A DNA stretch of 64,000 nucleotides, from positions 806,001 to 870,000 of the forward strand of contig NW_026570267.1 in NCBI RefSeq assembly GCF_019649055.1. The letters run 5' to 3'. This DNA comes from Paramacrobiotus metropolitanus (Eukaryota; Tardigrada; Eutardigrada; Parachela; Macrobiotidae). The position numbers were made by a program, and so were the translations under genes. Below the pieces are notes generated by a model. That model did no database searches, was not told the origin of the DNA, and saw only the letters and a program-made list of their open reading frames with translations. This document shows, in pieces, positions 35,854 through 62,600 of the stretch; positions within the stretch are counted from its first letter, which is position 1, and each line of letters starts with the position of its first letter.

Positions 35854-36026
35854 ATGTAAGCAGTGGCAATCAGAACAGTGATCTCCTGACTGATCACCAG
35901 GAACCGAAGGTCATCAAATCGTAACACCGCTCGCTTATGTCCTCGCGCCACGTAGCCCGCCGTCCACGACTGCGCGCAGCCTGTCGAAGAAATGACCCCG
36001 TATGTTTATAATATGATGTGTTGCAG

Positions 36027-38540
<2,514 letters not shown>

Positions 38541-39417
38541 CTAGTGTGGACTATGAGCTCTTGCTGTTTTATGGAGAGTCCGGCGCGAAGACATTGTTTA
38601 CGCTGTGCTGATGTTTTATGAGGTTTTTTGTACAGGGTTTTTCAGTATTGTGATTGGTGCAGATTCTCCACTGTCTTTAGACTGCTTTATTGATCTGAAA
38701 TTTCCGATTCACCGAACTTTTCTGACTGAATGGAACCGGGTCTTTAATTTTGAGAAAAAAGTTGCGCTGCACATTGTACACATTGCTTTCAGTTGCTCGC
38801 GTGACCGCGTCTGATCTTTTTTCCAACAACACATGAGGATGTGCTTCTTAGTTGTAAATGTTACCTTGCAAATCCTTACTTGCAAATATGCCCTTTGAGC
38901 GAAGATTTGACGCATTGATGTGAGCTTGCCGAAGTGACAGCGATCTTGAAAGTGCTTGTGATGTACTCATAAATCCCGCAAAGATGGGTGGGCGGTTTTT
39001 TGCTTTTGCTGTTGTGGGCAAAAGTAGGAGCCTGCTGGGACAGTTATCTGGTTTCACGACAATCAAAACCGAGGGGCAATAAAAATTGTGAATTCAAGGT
39101 ATCTCGAAGCTTATTAAAAATAAAAAAAGTAGTAGAATTAGTCCAAGTGTCGCTTCTAACGATTCTTAGCATTATGACTCATTTAAGTACATTGTCGAAC
39201 AAATGCCAAACCAAAGAAGCTGAAGAATCGGAAACGCCCATACACATGAAAAGAATTAGTTTGTCATTGTCATAAAGGTAACATCATCAGAATTTCGTTC
39301 CTTGAAGTTATTCTTAACATTGAACTTCCTTCAAAGCATGTTAAAGTTAAAGCGAAAAATATCGATAGATGTATTTTAGTGATGTAAATTGTGCAAATTC
39401 CTTTCAGTTGCTCGCGT
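38541..39417. other. Intergenic between the RPB2 fragment and POMP
   Basis: The only recognisable content is a partial copy of the POMP terminal exon near 38771-38850. The remaining frames look random. Confidence 0.45.
38771..38850 (-). repeat. Partial duplicate of the POMP terminal coding exon
   Basis: About 65-80 bases match 39387-39455 with a 7-base insertion and scattered changes. The shared parts include tttcagttgctcgcgt and ccaacaac, then atgaggatgt. In the POMP frame on the minus strand this copy reads EAHPHVLLEK, against EVHPHLLLEKD in the real gene. It then runs past the normal stop because that TAG is not preserved. Confidence 0.6.
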
Positions 39418-42735: not shown

Positions 42736-44804
42736 ATGGATTCCGACAGTGAACGAAATTATCAAGAAGCTGTTTTGAAAATTGTTTTTCTTGGAGAGCC
42801 AGGAGTAGGGAAGGTATAGTAAAAACGTTAACGACAAACATATATACATTCTCCTTAATTGTGAAAATACGTTTTTTGTGCTAGACGTCCATAATTCATC
42901 GCTATTTAAATGACCAGTTTAGCGGTGATTCCATTCAGACCAGTGGTGTGGAGTTCCATCGCAAGCGGATTTCCTTTCCGGGTACGTACATATTACCTAT
43001 TCCGTCTACACCCTGATCAACAATGTGCAGTGTATGTGGGCACACAATCGCATGTCATGAGGATGAACCGCTTAATGTATTATTAGGGAATACTGACGTC
43101 AGTTTGCACATTTGGGATACCGGCGGCGCTGCCTTGATTAGCGGAATGCTCAGTTCGTACCTGCACGAAGCACATGTAAGTTATGGTTTCCACAAACAGT
43201 GTATGCTGCAAGACGAAAATGTATACTGGACGACGAAATGAGCAATACGATCCTATCCGAACACATGTATGCAGCATTGCGGCGCTCATGTGATAGAAGT
43301 ATTGACCTTTGCTTACAGTTTCTCAAAATCTCTTTTATCGATTATTTATACCTTCGTTAAAATTAGATCATGTACGTCTGTTAAAACAAAAACAGATCGC
43401 TTTTCAGTCAAGGAAAAGAAAGCGTCGTCATACCGATGGAAATATCTCTTGTTGTTGACCCGTTTAATAACAGTCCGTAAATTGCTATTTCCATGCAATA
43501 AGAATGGAACATAATTTGCAATTGGCGAGCATGACCGGGTTTAGATAAAATATAAGTACTTAATTACGTAGTGCTGTGCCATGTACAATACGTAACATAT
43601 GTATCTACAATTTAAAATGTGCATCAACCATAATTATAAGGTGCTCTTGTAAATTATTATCGTTTTAAGGTAATATATTATATTATCGGATGGGACTAAT
43701 GAGTTTAGGCTGGTCGACTGTTCTTACTACAAAGTATGTTGGTGGTTGGTTCATGATAACTCTGTAGGAGCGTTTAACGACATGGTTGACAACGAGGATG
43801 TGTTTTTTGCTTTTAAGCCAGCTAAACGGAAGTAATGGTTCTGTTATTGATTATTAATGTACTGTTATGAATACCAATAAAATACTGATGACTGAAAAAA
43901 AATTATTTTACACTCTGTAGGTAGCTGGTACTTAGTACTTTGCAGCAAGCTTAAGTCATAATTCAGTACTACATAGACACAAATCCTATAAGAAAAAGTG
44001 TTAGTCAGATGCCCAAAAATTGGTTCCCGTGATCCGTAAAATATATAAATGTGATACGCAACAGTTCCATTAAAAACAGGAGTGCCCTTTTAGAAGATTA
44101 CGCATTCAAATTTTTTTGTTCTGTACTCGTACAGAGGCAGACTTTAGCCACCTACAACAATTATTTTTTCAGGTGCTTGTGTTCGTGTACGACATTACTA
44201 ACACCAATTCCTTTGTGAAGTTGACGGACTGGTTTGAGATGATACAGAAATACTACCCACCTACCGTTGATGGAAGCAGTAAACGAAAAGATCCATTTAT
44301 GGCCGTTATTGGGAACAAGTGTAAGTTGAATACTTCTATCGACAATAATTACGTATACGGCGTATAAGGATAACCTGAGAATGCTGTTGCCAGCAAATAG
44401 AAACTATGCTTTTCACAGCTGACCTTCAGCATCTGCGTACCATCAAACCCGAAAGAGCCATGAAATTTGCTCAAGAACGAGGTGTTGCGGAGACCGGCGT
44501 TATATCGGCGCAATCGAATGACGGCGTTCATGTTCTGTTTCGGAAAATAACGGCTACTGTGCTAGGGTTACGGTTGGGACGTGCTGATTTTGAACAAGAC
44601 ATTGTTGCTGCTCAGGTAAATACAAATACTGGTGCAGTAAAAGTAACACCCAGCTGGTAAATCTTTAATTATTATATTCATATTTATGGGGGTATTTTTC
44701 GATTACATGGAAGGTTAAATGGGCACCGGCTTTCAGTTTTCAGTTTGTGGTTATTTTTACTGCAGCTATTAGATCCAGACACCGGCGGTAGCATGTTACT
44801 TTAA
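42736..44804 (+). CDS. RAB28: Small GTPase RAB28, with altered switch II
   Basis: Exons 42736-42813, 42885-42981, 43087-43175, 44173-44320, 44419-44615 and probably 44766-44804, about 215 residues. RAB28 features: start MDSDSE before LKIVFLGEPGVGKTS (P-loop), GVEFHRKRISFPGN, LHIWDTGG, VFVYDITN, GNKSDL (base-specific NKxD) and HLRTIKPERAMKFAQERG, a string I know from RAB28 and not from RABL3. RAB28 works in cilia and photoreceptor or sensory-neuron trafficking, with the BBSome in nematodes. Two oddities: the switch II glutamine of WDxGGQ is Ala73 (WDTGGAA), and neither possible C-terminus ends in a prenylation cysteine. If exon 5 is not spliced at 44615 it reads on to a stop at 44660, giving 217 residues. 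The terminal exon is the weakest part of the model. Confidence 0.88.
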
Positions 44805-46263: not shown

Positions 46264-49200
46264 TTAATTGTGGAATTCCTGTTCCAGAAGGCTGCACATT
46301 TCCATCAAGCCTTCATCCAGATTCCGTGCAAACATTTTGGTACTGGTCTTTTTACAGCTTCGCCAGCTGGAGATGCAGAAGAGAATTTGCCGCTCGTGCA
46401 GATTATAAGAGCAACCGTAACCACCCTTGACGACCGGCCCATAACCCATAAAAGTTCTTTCGTCCGTAGTCGGCACCTACAAAATAGAGAAAACTTCCGT
46501 GCTATTTGTTTTCTAGAGCATACTGCATAGCGTGAAGGTCATTTCAATATGCAAGACCGTTTTCAAAAACGTAAACATCAATATTAAATTTTAAAAGTAC
46601 ATCATAATTATATTGTATAAGTGCCTATCAAATAAACGGTTTAGTGCAAAAGGTCATGCACTGTGAATGAGTAGAAGTTAAAATGTCTTCAAATATATAA
46701 AAAAAGAATAACGTTCTGTATAACAAAAAATGCATTTATGATCGATTACCGTAACTTCGACTTCAAAGCTGGGAATTCTAAGGGCGAACAAATGCCACAA
46801 GAAAAATTTTTCACTACGTCAGTAAAAAGTCTTTTCACAAAATTTGCAAATTTGTGCTATCAAATTCTTGAATTTAACGTTGAAGGAGATATTTTGTTAT
46901 GATTACATCTCTAGATCTAACTCGATAAATCAAACGGCGCAGCAATGGGCCTACGTCTATGCAAGTTACCGCATGTATGCATAAGAGATTAAATTCATCT
47001 GTACGCGTAAGGACTGCCATGTGAAATTAAAGTTTTTGTTTGCTCTCATCAGTCTATATCGTGTTGAAGTATCATCAAACGGAATAAGGATACCTGACTA
47101 GTGGACAGCAGGAAGCAGTTGAAGTATTTAAAGTTTTCGTCGTCGAAAACTTCCGGCACGTATCCGGTCGTTTGCACACCGATTTCTCTGAGAGCAATGA
47201 AGTAATTATCGACTCCTTGTCCACGAATGGCCTGCAGCCAGAACAATATATAATCCTGTTTTATAATCCTCTTTTATAAAACGGGTTGGGGCTCATCCCA
47301 TTATTCGCCGCCTGCCGGTATATATGCGCGCATTTTAATTGGAATTCCACTCGAGTTACCTTATTCATAACGTCCGTCTGTCTGGCCATGGCTTCCCGAA
47401 ACAACTTTAATTGCTCTTGTTTACTGTGCCCGTTTAAAACCATCGCCTTCACCCATGCCAGCGCTTCTTTTGTGGCCGCTCTAATCACGTCAACTCGCCC
47501 ATAGTTGAAACGCCGGATCGATGCCGATTCGTACGTGGCCACCAAATGTCCGTGTGACCTTTAAAAAAATTATCAAAACAGTGAAAACAACAAATCTAGA
47601 ATTTTAAACTTAAACTTGCATTTTAAAATTTAGATATGAGGGTCACACTTAAATTTATGAAATCCTTTTTAGCTAGCCTAAAATCCACATTGATCGAAGT
47701 ACGCAGTATCACTATACTCGTCCTGTAGAAATATAACAAAAAGCTTACCGCCAAATGCGTCAAAATGAGATAACAAGCCGAAGAAAAGCACAGCAACTCG
47801 GACTAGCAAAAACTATAGCTTTCGTTAATTAATTACTATACATATAAAAACCAAAATATAACAAAATTTGGAAATGCAAATACGTACGCAACAAAATATG
47901 CAACAGTCAAGCAGGATATTCATGGATTTTGCGATGGGCACGCAGCATGCGTTTATGGCGCCTAAAATTATTATTAACTCATAAGCGTGCATAAAATAAA
48001 AAATTGCCAAATAAGTGTGCGTGTGAAGTAAATTTGTTAGCCACCTAACAAGCTTTTGAGTGATGGATCTTTTATACCTTCGCAACGTCTCTGGTATGAT
48101 ACGTTTTTGTTTTTATGCTAATTTGACTGTGCCTTCATAAGCATACTTATAATAAGCCAGTTGCAATGCCAGTTGCACGAAGCAATCAGGACTCATTTTA
48201 TATTGTTTGGGGATGTTCTTGCCGAACGGCTCAAAGCGGTAAACACGCAATTCCAGATCGCCAGCCAACCTGTTCAAACGGAAATTATTTCATTTTGCCC
48301 GAGTCAATATTGGAGCACAAGTGCAACGCGATATACGTCGTTCTCTTACTGATCAATTTCCAGACAGGTTGTGTCTAGTATGTCAAGAAGTTCGGAAGAT
48401 AAACACCATTTGAGATGTTTCGGTGGATAAGGAGTATCGGGAGGTAGAATGCCGTCGACGGTGTCGCAGCCGCCGCCGTTTATCCCGTTTGCTACTCCGT
48501 TCTCCCGGTGACCGTTCGACGGCAAAATAGCCAGTCGTTCTCGCCATGATCGTCTAACACGAATGCAAATCAATTTTGAAATCGTTAAAATAGATTTCCA
48601 TAATTAATCCATAATTAAAATGAAATGTAAAATCGCGTTACACATATGTGTATGTCTCTGTATCTGTATTAATACACAGATATACCGTATATATAATTTA
48701 AATTATGCAAATAAAGAATTTTATTCGGTATTGTTTATTATTGTTAAGAATTGTTACCAAATCAGCTTTGTTAGGAAATACACACGTATTGACTTTGTTC
48801 GGATTTCGGAATTGCTGTTATACATATATATGGCTCTGGATACCGATATTATATCTGTATATTAATGGTACATACCTAAAAGTATTTTTTACAGTAGCTC
48901 GAAAAGATATTTCGGTTAAACATGCCATTACACAGTTGCCAGTATGTGTTATGTGGCATTTGAAAGGAAAACTGTTCATATCGATAAACATGAACATATT
49001 CGTGGGAAACGTCCGGCAGTCTATGACCATACTGCATCTCGTCAAACTTACGCTTTATCGATGGCATATTCAATGCAGGCCACAACCGGAATGCCCTCAG
49101 CGGTGGAGTGCTCGTAATTTAAGCCACAATAGCCATTGCGATTTATGATCAGCTGCAAGGGCTTCTCGAACCATCGATTTCTGGAATGGGCAGTTGATCC

Positions 49201-52162
49201 TCCTCCGTGAATCATCTCGTGCAGCGTAGTGGTCTGCTCGTTAACATCAATATCGCTCATCATCTGACATTCTTCATCCAGGCATATTATAAACAGGCTG
49301 CTCTCGATGCTGCCCAAGGATTTTTCATTCGTTGGATCTGTACGGGACCAATGCCGCGGTTATATATATATTTCCACAGGGCTCATTTAATTCGGGAATG
49401 TTTGCCATTACTTAATTGTTACGATCAATCTTGATATATATGCAATATTTATCTCCGAATTCATAGTGAAAGTATATGGTTATTCTGCTCGATTGTGGTA
49501 AAATGTCACTCTGTTTAATCATCTCATTTTTTTCACATTCGGATTCTTGGAATTTATACAGGGACCGGCATTTTTCACCTTTTGTTAAGAGCTTATGCGT
49601 TTTGCCCCAGCGTCTTCGATCCAATGTCGTCAGCAGGCCAACCGGAAGCTGCGGACTGTTGTCGCTATTCTCCAGTATCCAATTGAGTTCTTTACTGATA
49701 CACTCCACCGAGCGCGGCTCACCATGCTCAAACACGGCCATCTGATAAAACTGACCTTTGACGGCCACGATACAGTGTTGTGAGTGCTGGAAACGCAGGC
49801 GTTCATCCTGGATGATGCCGGGTCGACGGTAAGTGAGAAACATATTATTGTACTGCCGCATGCACAGCGGCTCATTGTTGCGTGTGTACTGTTGAGTTAT
49901 ATCTTCGTTATCGATCAGCAGTTTGTAATCTATAATGCCGCGTGCCACTTCCGCTACGTATCTGCAATTATCGGGAACACCATTATCAATAAACTCATAT
50001 AAAAAAACTTTTCAAAACATTTATTCACGTTTAGAAATTACTAAAACTCAGTGCGCAATTATCGAATTATGTAAGCAGTGTTAAAATTAACGATATCGAA
50101 GTTATGTGTAACAATTGTACAAGATAGTAATATCTATATATATATAGTTTGTATGACTATATGAAGAATGAATTAATTAAATAAAACAATACACTTGGTC
50201 AAATATTTACCGCAACCACTGATGGTCGGTGTCGAAATGTTCCTTGGGAAGGACCATTCCGGGATTGGAATTGACGGGCAGGGCGAGTCCCATCCGGAAG
50301 TACATGTCATCCAGCCAGAAATCATGCGCCTGTCACAATTTCAAAACACGCGGTAAATGAACCACTCAGTTTGGGGCAGATATTAGCTAAATTTGTAAAA
50401 TCATTACATCCCCGCCGCTATGCGCAGTTTTGTATCAATAATGAAGCTACTTGACGCCGACAACAAGTGTAGCAGGTGCGCCATCGATTGCATCAATCAG
50501 CGCATAACAACTTCATGTCTTCGTTCAACTAATTCGATTTTGTGCAGTAGTGGCGGCTAGTAGCAGCTGAATATCAAACCAAGCATTAAACTCAGCCTTC
50601 AAGCTTGAACGATTCCATTTGCAACGAAATTCATTCAATGCATACGAGTATATCTATAGAAGTATACTACTGTACGTATATTCGAAAAAGGCGCAAATAT
50701 TGAAAAAAAGTGGAAAAACGGTAACATAATTTATACTACTAGTTCGCCGTTTCGGAGGCAAAATAATTTGGTGTATCATTTTAACAGTCATTAACCATTA
50801 TAATATATTTTAGTAAAAACTTTCTAGTTTTACACACTTTTACTTTTAGCTAAAAATAAGCCAATCAAGCGCAATTCCGTCACAAATTTTTGGTTGTCTT
50901 TTTTTGCTATACGGTACACAACACAAATTGAATAACTTTGGAGCTTGTTTGGCCTGAATTTTATGCCACAAAACCACGTGCGGAAAGCACGTACATATAA
51001 TTTGATAGAATTGTATAAATTAGCCGCTTTATAGGTCAAAGGGAAGAAATCCTATCCAGTGCTGTAATTATGTGGAACAGTAAATTTCACTTGCGTCTGC
51101 CCTGTAATCGTCTGGCCTGGGGTTGTTATAGGCACAGTGATTATAAGAAACGTCGACAGATTGGTTTTGGGGAAAAGAAAATTACTGGTAACAGTCACAC
51201 ATGTCGGTAGCTTTATTAATTGTAAGTTGTTAGGTCGTCTGTGGCGCTGATGAACCGACGTTTTTTATGATCAAATGCATGTAAAATTTTTAATTATTAT
51301 TTAAAGGCGATTTGTGCATTATTGGCAGAGATAAATCTGTCTACGAGCAGTTCACACAGAAATCCGAAGTAATAAAGTTATATTTGATTCAAATAATAAA
51401 TTCAAGTAATATTTGCAAGACGAATACCTAAGTGATTGTGACTTCCGCACCGGCAAAAACCGGGTGCGTAACATTATGCTGATGCGAAAATTGCAATTTG
51501 TAGAATGTGGTAATTCTATACATCCTGACAAGTCCAGCCTCATCGTTTACATGGTAATGCATTCCCTGAATAGGAAAATGGTAATGAGTAACATGGGAAA
51601 TTAGATGAGAAAGGGAAAGGGGACGCAGCGAGGGATTATCGGGATATATGCATTGACGGGATAAGCCGCCGTCTCTCGGTAGAAGAAAGTGATCAAACTG
51701 TAGTATAACTACTGCATATACGGCAGCCTAAATCAGTCCTCTCTTGGCTTACACTATGCTCCAGGGACTCATCGCCGGGACACAAACTAACTTGACGTAT
51801 CGTAAAAATGGTAATGCCACAAAATCTTTGACAAATCCCGCCGCTTTACCGGCTGAATACATTAAGCTGTGTTAAATTAATCTGAGCAAATTGCCACAGT
51901 CAATTGCGGCGTATATATATACATCCGCGTACATGCTATGTGCACATACCCAATTATCCGATTTGGCGGCAAACTCTTCCAGCTTCTGATGGAGTTGTTG
52001 TCCCAATCCGCCATTCTCCAGGAATTTGTCCACCTGTGCTTTGGCCCGCTGCCAATCTTCGGGGCTGACAATGGCACTCAGATCATTGAGGTAGGTCTGG
52101 AAGCATTCGCTGGGCGAGGGGACCGGTAATTTCGGTGGAATAACGTAGCGCGTAATCGACAT
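46264..52162 (-). CDS. ChAT: Choline O-acetyltransferase
   Basis: Nine exons on the minus strand: 52162-51950, 50329-50211, 49961-49579, 49337-49052, 48553-48350, 48269-48147, 47558-47360, 47231-47094 and 46476-46264. All phases agree, giving 625 residues. The enzyme transfers acetyl from acetyl-CoA to choline in the cytosol of cholinergic neurons. Diagnostic segments are PPKLPVPSP at the N-terminus, [57 protein letters not shown] with catalytic His315, [22 protein letters not shown], and [15 protein letters not shown] with [18 protein letters not shown] and the C-terminal pattern fit choline rather than carnitine acetyltransferase. A Gly/Asn-rich insert (about residues 345-365) is lineage-specific. 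The start at 52162 is the only Met before the conserved N-terminus. VAChT lies 4.4 kb upstream on the same strand. Confidence 0.95.
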
Positions 52163-55100
52163 GGTGGCCGCCGTGCGGTGGTGTGCGCGTGCAGTCCCGG
52201 TGTACGGGCGCTATAAAAGTCACACACACAAAAAGCGACAACGCACACACACGCAATAGATGGCTTAAGCCGGATGGGGTTATCCAATGACACAGCTCCG
52301 TGCGACGCTGTATACTCTCGTGTCAGCTATGGTGCGCCGAATTATAACTGTCGAGTGTTGATAGGTCAACTGTGTGCTGACACTCTCGGTCTTGATGAAG
52401 TAGAATTGTGAGGAAGTTGTCTGGTCGTTTTATTTGGACATATATATTTATCAAACCAACTGAAGATGTGGAGCTGTGTGTATGTGTTAGCGGATCATTA
52501 TAAAGAGTCCCGCAAAAGAAAGATGAGTCAGTACTGGAAGTGTATGTATGTGTTTTTATCTGGCGGGCGTTTTTCTTCGTGAGCTACGTCGGGTTGGCAT
52601 TAATAAGAAAAGGGGAGGGGGACGGCGATCAGGATGCGGAATTAGGCACCGTGGAATTGTTTGCTTATGCGTGTGATGCGCCGTCTTGGAAATACGGCGA
52701 TGACGATGTGTGTGTATGTGTGGTGCTGCTGCGTGTATGGATTGCCGCATGCAAGAAGGAAGTGGTCTTCTTCAATCAGGGATTGGTTTGGTCCCGTTGA
52801 CAAGTTTACAAATGATTTGCGCCCCTACTGGGACTGTGTACACGAGTCATTAGTGATGAAGGCCGCTGCAGCCAGCAGCCGCCGATGCATGGGGAGGGAA
52901 GGGCGAAATCTACATTCGACAGTGAGCAACGGCCGCGGGCCGTTTATATGCCTCCCGGCAAACCATTTGGCCTGCGGTTCATTTTCATCGATTTCCGGTG
53001 GCTGACTTGGCTGTCATTTCCCTGCCGTACAGTATGACTATGCGTTTGAGTATATGCCTCTTGACTATCGTTATCGGCAACACTGGCTACTTGTCGTGCG
53101 GAAGCGAATACAATTGGATTTTTCTTTTCTCCTGCCGATGAAAAAGCCAGCGCGCGTCGGCTGTGCAATGATGAAAAATGAACTCACAAAAACCACCGGT
53201 ACTTGTTAAAGGGAAAAAAAGTTCGTTAAGCTAATTGTGGCGATGCAGTCGTAACCTTTAGGGTAATTTAATTAGAAGCACGCAGGGAAACTGCGGCCGG
53301 GTCGGTATAATTTCATAAATCAACGGCACTAGTAAAAACCGAACTCGCTTGGAGCGTGCGTGATCAAATGAAACCAAATCATTTGTAGTATAAGAGATAC
53401 AAAATTATCGTCAGAAATCAGGACCGTTACGTAATACCTTATAGGTTTCTTTCAATAGTGTTTACTCTGGAATGTGTTACGGCTAGTAACCAGTGAGACT
53501 CGAAAATTAAAATTAATTTTAAAAAATTTTAAATATTTTTTGCCTGACAACACATATGCGACCAAGGAGTTTCTTTTGATATTTCAGTTTTATTTAATGC
53601 CGGAATAATTCGGTATCGATATATTAGAAATCGTTTTTAATAGCTGTTATTTGTTTGTAAAAGCAGCTATGCTCTGCACACAACAAAATGTTTGGAAGTG
53701 ATCATAATCTGAATGTAAATCCGTAAAGTATGTCAACAGAAAATTATTTGCTTTTCTAATTTGCGCCAGTGAATAAGGTTTTTCTGCATGCCTCGCTGGC
53801 CTATGGAACATATTATGTCAATAAGAAATTACGTAAGTGCAGTTTATTTATAGCTCACCAGGTACTTAATTATAATTCTAAATTTTTTATAGTTTTCCAC
53901 ATTTCGACAATGGGTTCTGACGCGCTGTATAAGTTCACTTAGTAGAAATTGCGTAGAACTTGTGCAATACATGTCGACAGTTGTCAAGGTTGTGTCTATT
54001 GATAATCGTGCCGATTACTCTGGCACATCGGAGATCGTTAACGATTTTCAAGTTGCGCAGCCGATCCCAGTCGACATTCTTCCCTGAAACCGATTTCGTT
54101 GACGGAAGAGTGTTGCGCACGCGGTACAACGTGCAGAATCGTCTCTCCCGTCCATAGATTCTTTCTCTCCCTTTCTGCGCCTGCATCAAGATGTTCAACC
54201 GGAAACTTGATGAACTGGCACGCAGCTGTGCTCATATCGAGATCATTTTGGATATTCACTTTGATTGACCGGCCAGATAGATATATATGTACAAAGCCAA
54301 GACATTTATCGCGGCCAACCAAATATTTCCGAGTTGTTAGCTTTTTATCACGATTGAAAAAACAACCCTCTGATATTTAGGTTTGACGTCATTGTGCGAC
54401 TGATTTACTACACTAAGAGAAACACATTAACTCCATATTCGCTCTGACCGGTCAGAATTTCAGCGCACCGTTTCGTAGTGCCCTTCACCAAACTGTCAAA
54501 ATATTGCAGACTATTTAGTCCTGACGTAGTTTGCTTAATAATCGATACATGTCAATGTGTCTTAATGTACCGGTATCGGTTGCAATATCGCAACTAGTTT
54601 ATTTTTCGAAGAAACTCTCAAATTTTCATCAAGCTTAATTTCGCAAGTTACCCTTCACAATGGGTAACCGCAGCGAAAAAAAGCGCTTGCAGTTTATGCA
54701 GTAAATTAGAGACTTGCAGCACGTACCCGAATGTCTCATGACTGCAACTAATCCTGTGACGTCAATGGACCGTGTGTGTGCAGTCAGTGAGCAGACATAA
54801 AATTGCTCCTCGTAGGCATAGTTTCTTTAGTTCACATAATTTTACATACTAATAATTCTGTGCGCAATACTCAGCAGCTACCGTTATTGGCAGACATGAA
54901 ACGTTTTTCTAAATTGTGCTCATAGGAAAAGTAACTTTAGCCAGGTGGTGTAGGTATTTAACAAAAACAATCGGATACTGAAAATCACTCTAATTGGCTT
55001 CGTTATATGCAGTAACTTGCAACGATGGAATACGGTTATGTACGAGTAGTTTAGGCTTTGGAAATCAGAGGGCTTAGTATAATTATAATGAAAATGAGCA

Positions 55101-56611
55101 AAACAAATACTCTAGCTCCAAGCCTCCAAAACAAATAGTTTTAAAAGCCTAGTCATTGCGGTGGGGACCATTAAAGTACATGGAAAATTGATTGCGTACA
55201 ATTATATAAAGTTGTAATACTGTATTGCATGTTACGGCAGTGCTGGTGTTAATATGGTTAATCTATTGTGAATGTATTGAGGTGCTAGTTAATAAAAAAT
55301 CATTTATCTGCATTTTTGTTTATTTAATTAGGTATTTTAAAAAGAGCTTATTTTGTTAACAGCAAGCACTGCTCGTTGACAACAATGTAAAAGAATAGTT
55401 CAATTCACAAGTAAGTTCGCGTGAGAATGGACCGTACCAAATTAACATTTCTTATTTAATTGCAGACGACGTAATTGATTTTATTCAACATGTAAAATAT
55501 TTGGCTACTTCTGCCTTGTAAGGCTTTTAACCTATAGTAAAGCACTGTTTCTCTCAAGCTTTCGGCAAACTCTCCGCTTAAACAAATTAGACAGTTTGTT
55601 TTTACTTAATTTGTTATAATGAAGAAACTATGGCATACCGGTTAAAAGTTTTGTTGACCGGCATCGGCTGACTGCCGGGTACGTCACTAGCTTACAATAT
55701 ACTGGTGTCCATGAACCCAGTGACCAGTGTTGTGACCAAAATGAAATCTCACATAGCTCATTTCCCTTAAAGCGGAATAGTTACATTGTTAGTAACAGAT
55801 GTGGTTGTAAATTTAGATTTTACGCTTTTATTATAGTCACGGTTAATCCTGTAATGACCCAGAATTACAGCCCTGATATGAAGTAATGAAGCATAAAATG
55901 AAAGCATTTATTAACCAGAATACGGTTGAAGTCCAAAATAACTTAATTCTACACCTGTTTCGAGGTACATAATGCCCTATCTTTGCGCTATAATGTACAA
56001 TACAAAGACTTTCAAATGCACTTATTTCGAGCACTATACTGCGTTCTGGCGCCCATGTAATTGTCGCATGGTATTGTCGAACTAAAGGTCACAGTCGAAT
56101 GTATTCCGTTCTTTTCATGGAAGAAAAAATGGAAAAGATATAAATAAATAATTTCTCTCCTTAACTCAAGGTCAGCAATAGAAAAAAGAAAACAAACCAC
56201 GTCAGAGGGATGACGTGTGCAGCGCAGATCGCAGTACACCAAACAGACACAGGAGAACAAGAGATTGCAATTTGAGAAAATTGTGACGATCGACAGCGGC
56301 GATAACTGCATGGCTGGCAGCGTTAGGCGTATATGTGTACGTATGCATCGGTTTGGTGACAAATCGATCGTTGGTTGATTCGTTAGTTACGTTGTCTTTG
56401 AAAGAGCACGTCTGCAGCAAATGTGTAGCCTCTATTTTACAGTGCGCTGTCGTCGTAAAAATGTCAGCTGAGACAGCCGTCGAAACACGGAAACTGCATA
56501 TATAGAGACCGAAGAAAAGACGAGTTCGGGGGCTGGTGCGCCTTGTGTTAACAAAAACCAGTTAATGCCAGCGCGTTGTTGGTAACTGCACTGTGTGTAC
56601 GCTAAAAATTA
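52163..56611. other. Spacer between VAChT and ChAT coding regions
   Basis: About 4.4 kb with no supported gene. By analogy with other cholinergic loci this is probably the remainder of the first ChAT intron, plus any ChAT-specific promoter and 5' UTR. The part just before ChAT (52180-53170) is richer in GC and in CA/GT simple repeats; 53200-56000 is AT-rich. Confidence 0.5.
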
Positions 56612-59610
56612 TTATTCCATTTCATCTTCCTCATCATTATCCGGGAGAATCCGGTCTGTATCCTTTTCATACTCTCGATGGTATCGATTCATCGACCCAT
56701 AGGCGCCATTGCGCATAATATTTTTAGGACCGGTCTGCGACATGGTAAAGCGCTGCTGTTCTTCCTGCCATTCGGAGAGTTGCGCCATTTTTCCATCTTT
56801 ATCTTGCGGCATAATGGCTTGTCCTTCGTTGTAGATGGCATCGTAGTTGTAAGCCCCCCGCAGCCAGTACAGTACCGGCACGTACAGTAAATTACTGACA
56901 CCAATCATACAGCACAGGACGGTGAAGCCCAACGCTTCGTACACATTTCCGGCAAATACCGGTCCAAAAGCGTAGGCCGTCGAGTAGGAAATATCCGCGA
57001 TGGCGTACACTGACCCGTACACGGAAACATGCCGTACATCCACCAGATAGCCCAGCGCCGGTAATAGTGCCGTATCAATTAGAGCAATACCGAAACAGAT
57101 CACACACAGCGGAATAATTAACACCCAGAAACTACCGCAGGCCGGGATGAAAAAGGAGAAGATGCCTTCCAGTCCCAGACCGACTGCGGCGTACAGCCAG
57201 CCGTATTTGGGCCGGGTGGCGAGTAGCCGTACTGTCAGCCAAACGCCGGCCACATGCGGCAGGAATGCCGGTAACCAGATCATGCCCTCTTGTGCTGAGC
57301 TGACGCCCTCCATACTTTCGTTGATCCATAAGGAGATGGTCGGCTCCAAAAACGCTGCAAATATTACCAATACCGTAAACTATTAAAAACTCTGCTTGGT
57401 TAAAAAATAAAGCATTCAGTTCCAGTTCAGTAAAACTGAAATTAACTGCAAGTTAGCAAACAAATACGTAAATTCTGCGTCTAGAGTAAACAGTGCGTTA
57501 CACTGCAGTGACTGCAGGTATTTGCGTGCATAATTATGTAATTCATGCCTATTTGTATACCTGTATATATGTACGGGTTTCTGAAAACTTCTCCACACAT
57601 ATATACACAGGTCACAAAATAATTACTATCTATCTGCATAAAATGTACAGGGTTAGCAATTTTTAAGTCACTTATTCGAAATCTTATCAGAACGCTTATT
57701 ATAGTGAAATCAAACATGGATTTGTGGGGGAACATAACGTGAGCAGGTCAGCAGATTTATGTGCTTCCGTATAATTGCGAGCAGAGCGGGTGAACAGCTG
57801 TTTATTACCTAATGATACGTTGGCCATCATAAGTGCCCCCGCGCAAATGGCAATGTAGGGATCAAGGAATAGCTTCCACATGGGTGTCGGTTTCACATCG
57901 CTTGGCACATCCCCGATGAATTCACGGGGCACATCCATGGTCTTCTGGCGCTGTAGGGCGGTTTTCAGGGCGATATTCTCTTTCGGCTTCATAATCAACG
58001 ACAACCCGATGGCATCGGCTAAGCAGACTAGCGACAAAATAATAAAAGGTGATTCTTTGCCCATGTGCTGGTACATCACCCCGCCGAAGGGTGGCGCCAC
58101 TAGTGAGCCGAAGGAGATGAAGGCCAGCGCAATGCCCAACATTTTACTGCGCTCGGCCTCATCCGAGAACCGATCGGCGATCATGGCTAAACCAGCCGTA
58201 TCGGCAAACGCCGAGCCCACTCCCTGGAGACTACGGGCAAAAAACAGGACACCGTAGGCGGTACCAAAGGCGAAGATGGTCGTGGAAAAAAACATGATAA
58301 TCAGTCCGAACATCATCGGTTTTTCGTACCCATGTCGGTCAATTATGTAACCTGCAAGCGCAATCGGAATAAACCGGTTTTTGCAGTGCGCTTCGTATGT
58401 CAGTAAAAAAAGTACGACTATTCTCTTGCGACCATCGTTATGCAATCTCATCGACACCAGCCGCATCAGTAAAAGCGGGAATGTATTTTCTGCTGTTTGC
58501 CGTAACATATAAAAAGTGAAGATTTAAATTTTATGTTCTGATAGCTTAAATTTTTACATCAGATGAAATGCTTTAACTTTATAGAGAAATTTAACGGTTT
58601 GAGTGTATTGTATAAAACAGTTCCCTCTAAAGTAAGTAAGTACTAGAAAACAAAACCTAAATCCAGTGTTGCCCACAGGAATGTGTGTAAAGCCAGTTAA
58701 GGTAAATACGCAACATTAAAATAACAATGCTAAAAATTAAAATTTTACTAAACATTACTAAAAGTTAATTAGGCAGATTCATTGCTCGCATCGAAGTCTC
58801 TTTACGTATACTCGTACGGTACGCGAAAAGTTTGTTCCACTGTTTACCGGAAAAAGGGTTTGCCATGAGTTGTACAAAGGCTTTCGATGCGAAAAGGTAG
58901 CCATTATATCTACTTTCTCCTTCGTAAACAGGATCAGGTAGCCCATCTGGACCGGTAACATTGCCAATGGGCGCTCCCCAGGCCTCGATGTCGCGTAAGT
59001 ATTTGGGGATGATGGGTACAATCACCATGTACAACATGTTGTCCAGTCTAAATGGTACACAGTGTTAAGCCAACGATTACATGCATGGCTGCGGCGAATA
59101 CGGACGTAATGCCCAGAATCGTGCAGGCATTGTACGTTCAGCTCCCAGCTCTCGCCCTTCCGGTAATCAAAAGCAATCAGTCTATGTCGTGCAAGAGCAA
59201 TTCACGCACGCATGCTACGTATACATGCAGCGCGCACATCATAATCAATATATAAAAGAAACACCGCCATTTTCACAAGTTATCCCGTCGGGAATAGAAT
59301 TCTATGTTGACGGTAAGATGGTAAAAGATCAAAATCGGGAATTATTAAACTAGAATTTTTGTAGTTTTAAGTTTGCGATAGAAAAATCCGCCTAATAACA
59401 AAAAAAGCCACCAGCACTGGTTTGACCTTTCCAGCAGCGCAAAAAAACATCGCGTCTTAATGAATTTGCAACAAGCTAGTCAACTTACAGTAAGGCAATG
59501 CAGACAATGAGCATAACCAGCCGTCTCTGGATGTGTTCCTGCTGGATCTTCTCGTAGAGAAGCATTTTCAGCTCGGCAGTGTCTCGGTTGATGATGGGAA
59601 TGACCGGCAT
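56612..59610 (-). CDS. VAChT: Vesicular acetylcholine transporter (SLC18 family)
   Basis: Four exons on the minus strand: 59610-59489, 59047-58848, 58351-57809 and 57354-56612. Phases agree, giving 535 residues (human 532). This 12-segment proton antiporter loads acetylcholine into synaptic vesicles. Seen in order: [13 protein letters not shown] leading into [15 protein letters not shown] (first segment with its Asp), a glycosylatable lumenal loop (NVT), [83 protein letters not shown], and [20 protein letters not shown] with [15 protein letters not shown]. The last segments match VAChT better than the monoamine transporter VMAT. The tail is acidic (DNDEEDEME) with a possible sorting motif (DTDRIL). 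A second in-frame Met at 59679 could start the protein 23 codons earlier. Position just upstream of ChAT strengthens the call. Confidence 0.96.
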
Positions 59611-62600
59611 TTTTGCAGTCTGGCTAATTGCGCTGTATGTCGTGTAATAACAACCGGGAACCGCAACAGCCGCTTTCACTCAGCTCATACAAAAACCGCT
59701 TGCCGGACCAATAAAACAAGACCAAGCCGTTATGTATCACTTTGCCTAGTTCCGGACAGCAGGATCCAAACACGCACACCAACACCGCATTGTCCAACGG
59801 GCATTACGTCGGTTATATAAGCGCAGTTGATAATGTAGCCAAATTGTTCGGGCAGGCGCTTATTCTATCCGGCTACAGTATAACACAATACAGTCGCATG
59901 TAAAAAAGGGCGCATCACAAGCATCGTCCTATCTGTGGCGCGCGGCATAATTTGCATGATGGTCATGATGCTGCATACATGGTAAAAAGGGAAGAGGGAG
60001 AGGAAGATCTTGGGACTCTGCTGCTGGTCTCTTCCTCTATCTCTTCTTCTCAATCGTTAAACAGTAAAGATTTGCATACTGTAACAGCTAGCCAATATAT
60101 CGACATACTCGTTAATTTGGCTGCTGTTGTAGTTGCGATCCAGGAGATATATACATATGCATGCTGCTGTGGACGGCGCGCGCGTGTATATGGAAAGGGC
60201 CCAGTGAAGCCCAGGGTGTATGAGCAACTATCCGGATATACCACCACTGCAGGCGGAGTCATCACCATGTTGCCAGTGGGACAGATTGTAAAGTTACCGA
60301 TCGTGCACACGGTGCGGCCGGCAGAGTCGGACGGAAGCCGATTGGGAATATGGCATGCCGCAACAACGAAACATTTTACACAGAGTGAAACATTCTGCCT
60401 CCTATATATTACGTCATTAGCTGCGCGAAGGCGCGCGTGCATGTGTATGGTTGGTTGTTTGATCTTTCACATAAAAATTGAGGAGTAAGAAAAGGTTATC
60501 CCGGCGCAAGAGAATCAATGATGCTCGATGCCGGGGATGGGCAAATTGTGGGCGACGACGTCGACAAGCGATGTAGCCGTACAATTGGTTGGAATCTACA
60601 TATATGCATGCCGCGCGCGGGATCAGACTGCCGGTTGTGCCGGGGCCGGATTCGGCATCGGAAACCGTAAGGGGAAACGAGTGCGCGTGCTACATCTCGT
60701 ATTCCTAATCAATTCTAATTGCTTGCTTTCCAACTGGACGATTTTCGGTTTAGTTTGGACAAATGCACCATCGCCGCAGCGTCTTTCTCCGTCTTGTGTC
60801 ATTCAAGCTCGCTTTCGTGTATAAATGGATAACGAGTGTGTTTACTTGTTCACTGCCAACCAGGGCGGGGCACTTACGAGTGGCCACGATGGAAATTATT
60901 TTCATCCGCAATCAGGCATTAACAAGCATAGTAATAGATATTATTTTCGGCTACTGTTCAAAATATTATTTCTGCATTAAACCTAATTCTATGGTTATGT
61001 GACCGGCCGTATTTTGACTGAAACTGATACGCTATCAGACTTCTGTATTATACGATGCTGTGTTATTTGATTACAAGGTCCATATCCCTCCATAATTTCC
61101 ATGTGATTTACGAGTATATTATGAAGATGTTACTCGTAAATACCAGTAGAGTAATCTCGTGTCAACATAATAATTATCCGCGAATCTAGTTTATCAGAAA
61201 ATCTGTTGCATATATCAGTTCAAAATGGAAGAAACAACAAGTTTACAAATTGTAAACATTTAATATTTCTGTGCAATGCTACAGTATGTGCGATTAAATA
61301 ATATATATAGCGGTATACTGCTACGTACCGGTATTCTGACAAGAGGTGTGACGCATTGACGAAAAAACTACAGATACTTGTACTTGTATTAAAATAATAA
61401 CAGCTTAATTTTTCACCAGATTAACTACCACCCGAAAAAGTGATAGCATGTTTAAGTTTAGAACAGTGTACTGGTGGAGGGTAGTTTAGTAGCTAATTAA
61501 CACAACGTGAATTATTTTTTGTTTAAATGGTTACTGAACGGAAACGAAGTGCAGCACAGAAGACATGCAGCATAAATCAAACAGCAAATTTTAATAAATG
61601 TAGCGAGTTAAGCTTTCAACGGCGGCCAATTGGTGTCGTATTAAGTTGCCAGCTAAAGATTGATTTTGCCTGTAAATGAGCACAGCGGCACTATCGATCA
61701 ATTTGATTTGGCTGTTGGTATTCCAATTGCTTGGCAAACAAGATAACGGAGAAGATCGGCCCGCAAATTATTCTGAAAATTGCTAAATGTATGCAGGACG
61801 TTAATTATCCGTATGTGCAACTGCATACGTCGTAAGTAGTATGGTGCAAATAGTGGAGATCGGGACGCAACAGAGTATATGCCCGCAGTTTAGACAGCTA
61901 TACTCCAGACGACTGCCAGTCAACCGGGACAGAGTGCAAGTGCACTTATTCAAAACAGCCAATAGCCACCGGAAATATACTTGCCATTTTCATTTATGGC
62001 ATATAAGTGCTGTTCTTCCTGTAAAGATTATATGCGCTTATCCGCATCTGCAGCCATATAAGCTGCTTATACATTTACAAGAAGCCTCTCTTATATAATC
62101 GTCGGCACTTTAGAAATAATTTTATAATATGTTGGCCACCAGTGAATAATGTCAGTCTTATAGAGCACCGTAGCGTTTTAGGTGTGTAGTTGCAATCAGC
62201 ATTGTTAATTAAGTGTAGATGCCCGAGGTATGTGAGTTAGTGTGTGTGCTTGTTGGTTGCAAATGCTATATTGTAGAACTTTTGATAATTGTAACTATAT
62301 ATCACAGTACGATTTATGATGTCTACTCTCGCGTATACGCACTTCGGGTGATTCATGGTCAAACCTGGGGGATGCTAGGTTTGTGCGGCTTACGAGGTCA
62401 TACTGTATTTCGAATATGCGAAAACAAGTTCAGACGTCCAAGGGTACACCATGTGCGTACGGTCCACGTTTCGACTATGCCTTTAACCGCTTTTCGAAAG
62501 CGCTTTTTGTATACTAATTCCAGTGTATAAAAAATTGGTAGTGTCAAGTGTCAACAATATTGCAGTAATATTAACTACTTCATTTCTTTGATCTACTTCT

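Follow-up and report, generated by a model that had tools for sequence, protein, structure and literature searches.

The 64,000-nucleotide stretch of the Paramacrobiotus metropolitanus genome analyzed here (contig NW_026570267.1, positions 806,001 to 870,000; the whole stretch is called the window, and positions are given in its numbering unless stated otherwise) quite probably contains the cholinergic gene locus of this eutardigrade, with a gene for the vesicular acetylcholine transporter (VAChT) lying directly upstream of a gene for choline acetyltransferase (ChAT) and with a predicted transcript structure in which both share a 5′ exon and promoter, as proposed in the first-pass annotation. 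We found the two genes adjacent and on the same strand, with VAChT 5′ of ChAT. The genome itself bears a tardigrade mark, since a Hypsibius protein of the tardigrade CAHS family had at least 20 matches in it, those listed showing 37-71% identity (best E=3.0e-69). Judged from the DNA, the arrangement is of the kind that had been proposed, and the mechanism, although a prediction, is likely right as well.

We built the gene models by reading the minus strand and splicing at GT-AG sites. These borders were found at all 11 introns of the two models, and both resulting proteins were uninterrupted, with start and stop codons present. The VAChT gene (59610-56612) was complete, encoding 535 amino acids in four coding exons at 59489-59610 (with the ATG at 59610 and a donor that reads ACT in the exon followed by gtaagt), 58848-59047, 57809-58351 and 56612-57354, the last including the stop codon; its three introns, of 441, 496 and 454 bp, divide the reading frame. 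The ChAT gene (52162-46264) was also complete, with 625 amino acids encoded in nine coding exons at 51950-52162 (ATG at 52162), 50211-50329, 49579-49961, 49052-49337, 48350-48553, 48147-48269, 47360-47558, 47094-47231 and 46264-46476, the last again with the stop codon. Upstream of the starts, the ATG frames were closed by stop codons at 59680-59682 for VAChT and at 52211-52213 for ChAT. The spliced models thereby bear out the earlier description of two complete same-strand genes, VAChT first and ChAT 4.4 kb downstream, and the outer limits given at that time, 46264 and 59610, proved exact to the base.

The identity of the transporter was evident from comparison of the whole protein with structurally solved proteins, in which 33 sequences exceeded the threshold. 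Its best match was VAChT (439.4 bits, E=1.7e-130), whereas the best vesicular monoamine transporter (VMAT), VMAT1, reached 287.6 bits, so that by bit score the protein is nearer to VAChT than to VMAT among SLC18 members, as is expected of SLC18A3. The alignment also revealed the motif YAIADISYS in common between the tardigrade protein and the solved VAChT. NCBIfam gave general MFS transporter models only. No second VAChT copy was found in the genome, the other matches being five weak stretches on C14 and C16 (E ≥ 3.9e-12) that may represent VMAT or other SLC18 genes. We also looked for relatives in bacterial and archaeal genome contigs, where 13 pattern matches included no relative. VAChT is a proton-coupled vesicular transporter that loads acetylcholine into synaptic vesicles, a function assigned here by homology.

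For the downstream gene, the Pfam model Carn_acyltransf (PF00755) spanned residues 12-609 with 549.3 bits (E=1.5e-164) and was matched over positions 1-573 of 574, giving a full-length choline/carnitine acyltransferase domain, while NCBIfam gave no match. Exon 4 retains the EHS motif, which we take to be the site of the catalytic histidine. Within this family the question was whether the gene might instead encode carnitine acetyltransferase (CrAT), in which case the pair would not be a cholinergic locus. The overall margin was small, with 427.6 bits to ChAT and 406.0 bits to CrAT among the 15 solved sequences that exceeded the threshold, and the N-terminal half of the protein argued the other way, scoring higher against CrAT (234.0) than against ChAT (214.3). 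The C-terminal half scored 211.2 against ChAT and 170.3 against CrAT, and identity over the aligned pieces was 41.9% to ChAT (237/565) and 37.8% to CrAT (216/571). Motif comparison placed the choline-type sequences GRVDV (exon 7) and VDNY (exon 8) where CrAT has GRTDT and FDRH, at sites that presumably separate choline from carnitine as substrate through Asn in place of Arg and Val in place of Thr. When the genome was searched for the family, 27 matching stretches fell at four places, in the window and on C20, C29 and C86, and all three loci outside the window carry Arg at the carnitine position where the window gene has Asn. Since these three keep Arg, and the one on C29 is CrAT-like by both motif and score, the window gene is the only ChAT candidate found; no second candidate was detected in the genome by this exon-by-exon search, which weak exons may escape. 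Given that the discriminating sites carry residues of the choline type, that C29 holds a separate CrAT-like gene and that VAChT is the neighbor, we regard a CrAT identity as highly improbable and the gene, by sequence comparison, as very likely that of a choline acetyltransferase. ChAT makes acetylcholine, and that function is again assigned by homology.

The 4,449 bp between the VAChT stop codon and the ChAT ATG (52163-56611) would, in the predicted arrangement, form part of the first ChAT intron. No Rfam match reached the gathering score in this interval, and the longest stop-free frame, at 124 amino acids, was equalled or exceeded in 58 of 300 mononucleotide shuffles. The sole open reading frame (ORF) of the interval that was tested against Pfam, at 54041-54376, had no match, and the segment 52250-56600 found no other match when the genome was searched with simple repeats and highly frequent words passed over. 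A hidden gene was rejected on these grounds, and the statement that nothing else lies between the two genes held in that none was recognised by the Rfam, Pfam, ORF-shuffle or genome searches. As an arrangement, the proposed conserved cholinergic locus was likewise upheld, with identities, order, strand and spacing that fit the descriptions of other animals in two reports (PMC3053374, PMC7524744).

According to the mechanism we favor, transcription would start upstream of VAChT, presumably in cholinergic neurons, and a short 5′ exon would be spliced either to the VAChT part, followed by polyadenylation before ChAT, or across the whole VAChT gene to an acceptor in front of the ChAT start codon, such that one promoter would switch on both genes. 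We scored candidate splice sites with donor and acceptor matrices derived from the 11 local introns and from 10 more, taken from the remaining three acyltransferase genes (kept by eye for their clear margins from a set of 14, with 4 dropped), while known sites were scored by leave-one-out, which gave an acceptor median of 5.6. The AG nearest to the ChAT ATG precedes base 52210, 48 nt ahead of the start codon, and with a score of 9.3 it ranked second among the 214 AGs between VAChT and ChAT, or fourth when the smaller matrix of the 11 local introns was used. In a control covering ATGs on both strands of the window and of the sequence L006, with real coding exons and the ChAT ATG itself included, 31 of 2691 ATGs with an AG at most 60 nt upstream scored equal to or above the ChAT acceptor. 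This suggests that an intron precedes the ChAT start exon, as a nested arrangement requires, with 52163-52210 as the predicted 5′ end of that exon. The candidate acceptor is thus what the shared-exon model predicts, and the shared non-coding 5′ exon and promoter are themselves a prediction. If present, the shared exon most likely lies between 59.7 and 65.7 kb, because the next long ORFs upstream on the same strand are found at 65.7-69.5 kb. Of the 364 GTs at 59611-65700, nine reach the known-donor median, the strongest being those after 63999, 64384, 61329 and 60298, but none is set apart as the donor, and a unique first exon could likewise not be chosen.

Several observations weigh against a shared exon. 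The known-acceptor median is reached by 11 of the 214 AGs in the interval, one of which, at 53673, scored higher (10.6) than the candidate, and a private 5′ exon of ChAT would suit the acceptor at 52210 just as well. Near the VAChT ATG the acceptors are weak, the best of 12 below 59900 scoring 3.9 against the median of 5.6, for which reason VAChT may begin in its own unspliced 5′ untranslated region; better acceptors within 1 kb of that ATG were found at 60078 (8.3) and 60227 (7.6). Finally, a scan of the window for COE/UNC-3 motifs gave no exact site, and the eight one-mismatch matches compare with 8.36 expected.

The two genes could be neighbors by descent with no shared 5′ exon, ChAT having its own promoter and private 5′ exon within the 4.4 kb interval, with that exon either joined to 52210 by splicing or read through without it. 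An interval of this length leaves room for such an exon and contains other credible acceptors, as noted, and no donor upstream of VAChT is outstanding. However, ticks retain the shared exon (PMC7524744) and nematode, Drosophila and mammals the nested order (PMC3053374), and loss of the shared exon would therefore need a special event; we hold a private ChAT promoter to be rather unlikely. It might also be considered that the pair gives a polycistronic RNA which spliced-leader trans-splicing separates, the ChAT leader being added at 52210, since a strong acceptor with no known local donor resembles a trans-splice site. Operon spacings are usually shorter than 4.4 kb, though, and the nematode SL1 RNA was unmatched in the genome, which is weak evidence as no control matched either, so that we give this possibility hardly any weight. 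Shared exons known elsewhere are non-coding. Here the 16 codons between the candidate acceptor at 52210 and the ChAT ATG contain no stop, and an upstream exon, if coding, could in principle add an N-terminal extension to ChAT, in which case one promoter would serve two kinds of protein start, but we find this very unlikely.

As to the surroundings, the plus strand carries a Ras-family exon (27.2 bits) at 44074-44367, downstream of ChAT. On the side upstream of VAChT, Pfam gave no match for two ORFs at 59.9-60.5 kb, nor, at E ≤ 0.001, for five long minus-strand ORFs at L006 1735-5484 (65735-69484 in window numbering); the five are perhaps one gene, divergent or lineage specific. We also observed two copies of RPB2, the second subunit of RNA polymerase II, inverted around the cholinergic locus, one at 36022-38757 of the window on the plus strand and the other at C47:876352-879898 (L006 6352-9898) on the minus strand, with 87-93% DNA identity over three aligned pieces. 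Inside the second copy, a stretch at L006 8283-8838 (window positions 72283-72838 by extension) aligns with its reverse complement over 587 columns, with an 81% match, and is perhaps an inserted hairpin-like element. Five further RPB2-domain loci were found, at C47:996178, C15:1687675, C108:182980, C14:200207-201681 and C25:938715-940289. The copy on C108 looks like canonical RNA polymerase II and gave about 1.8 bits per aligned residue against solved RPB2, compared with about 1.2 for the window copy, the values referring to different stretches; the copies flanking the locus look divergent by their sequences. Those at C47:996178 and C15:1687675 form a second divergent pair whose DNA is 90% identical between the two and whose proteins are 55-57% identical to that of the window copy, whereas the C14 and C25 loci probably belong to RNA polymerases I/III. 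Matches to RPB1 domains fell at some four sites on C12 and C20, with no clear expansion to match that of RPB2. A literature search returned no paper in which tardigrades, RPB2 and paralogs occur together.

Exact gene models are now supplied for the tardigrade acetylcholine machinery. Among the papers listed for tardigrades together with cholinergic terms, none described the VAChT-ChAT locus of a tardigrade, which does not prove that such a description is lacking. We regard the locus as an expected case of a known ancient arrangement and not as a new one; with it, a tardigrade joins arthropods and nematodes with an intact VAChT-ChAT locus, which supports an ancestral arrangement in moulting animals. 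In Caenorhabditis elegans, the VAChT gene unc-17 is also split by introns, as in the tardigrade, and the locus is jointly regulated by UNC-3 at COE sites, whereas the tardigrade window showed neither exact COE sites nor an excess of near-sites. The C. elegans unc-17/cha-1 pair is described as an operon-like locus in PMC4769160, a likeness in its pairing of VAChT with ChAT. For nematode, Drosophila and mammals alike, a conserved location of VAChT within the first ChAT intron is reported, the mouse VAChT being a single coding exon inside that intron (PMC3053374); the mouse gene thus adjoins ChAT in the same order as in the tardigrade, but its reading frame is a single exon and that of the tardigrade is cut by three introns. 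In the tick Ixodes, according to PMC7524744, VAChT likewise lies in the first ChAT intron, upstream of ChAT and on one strand with it, just as the tardigrade VAChT lies upstream of ChAT on the same strand, while the tick VAChT frame occupies one exon as compared to four in the tardigrade, and the 82-bp exon 1 shared by the two tick genes was confirmed by reverse transcription PCR where that of the tardigrade is predicted.
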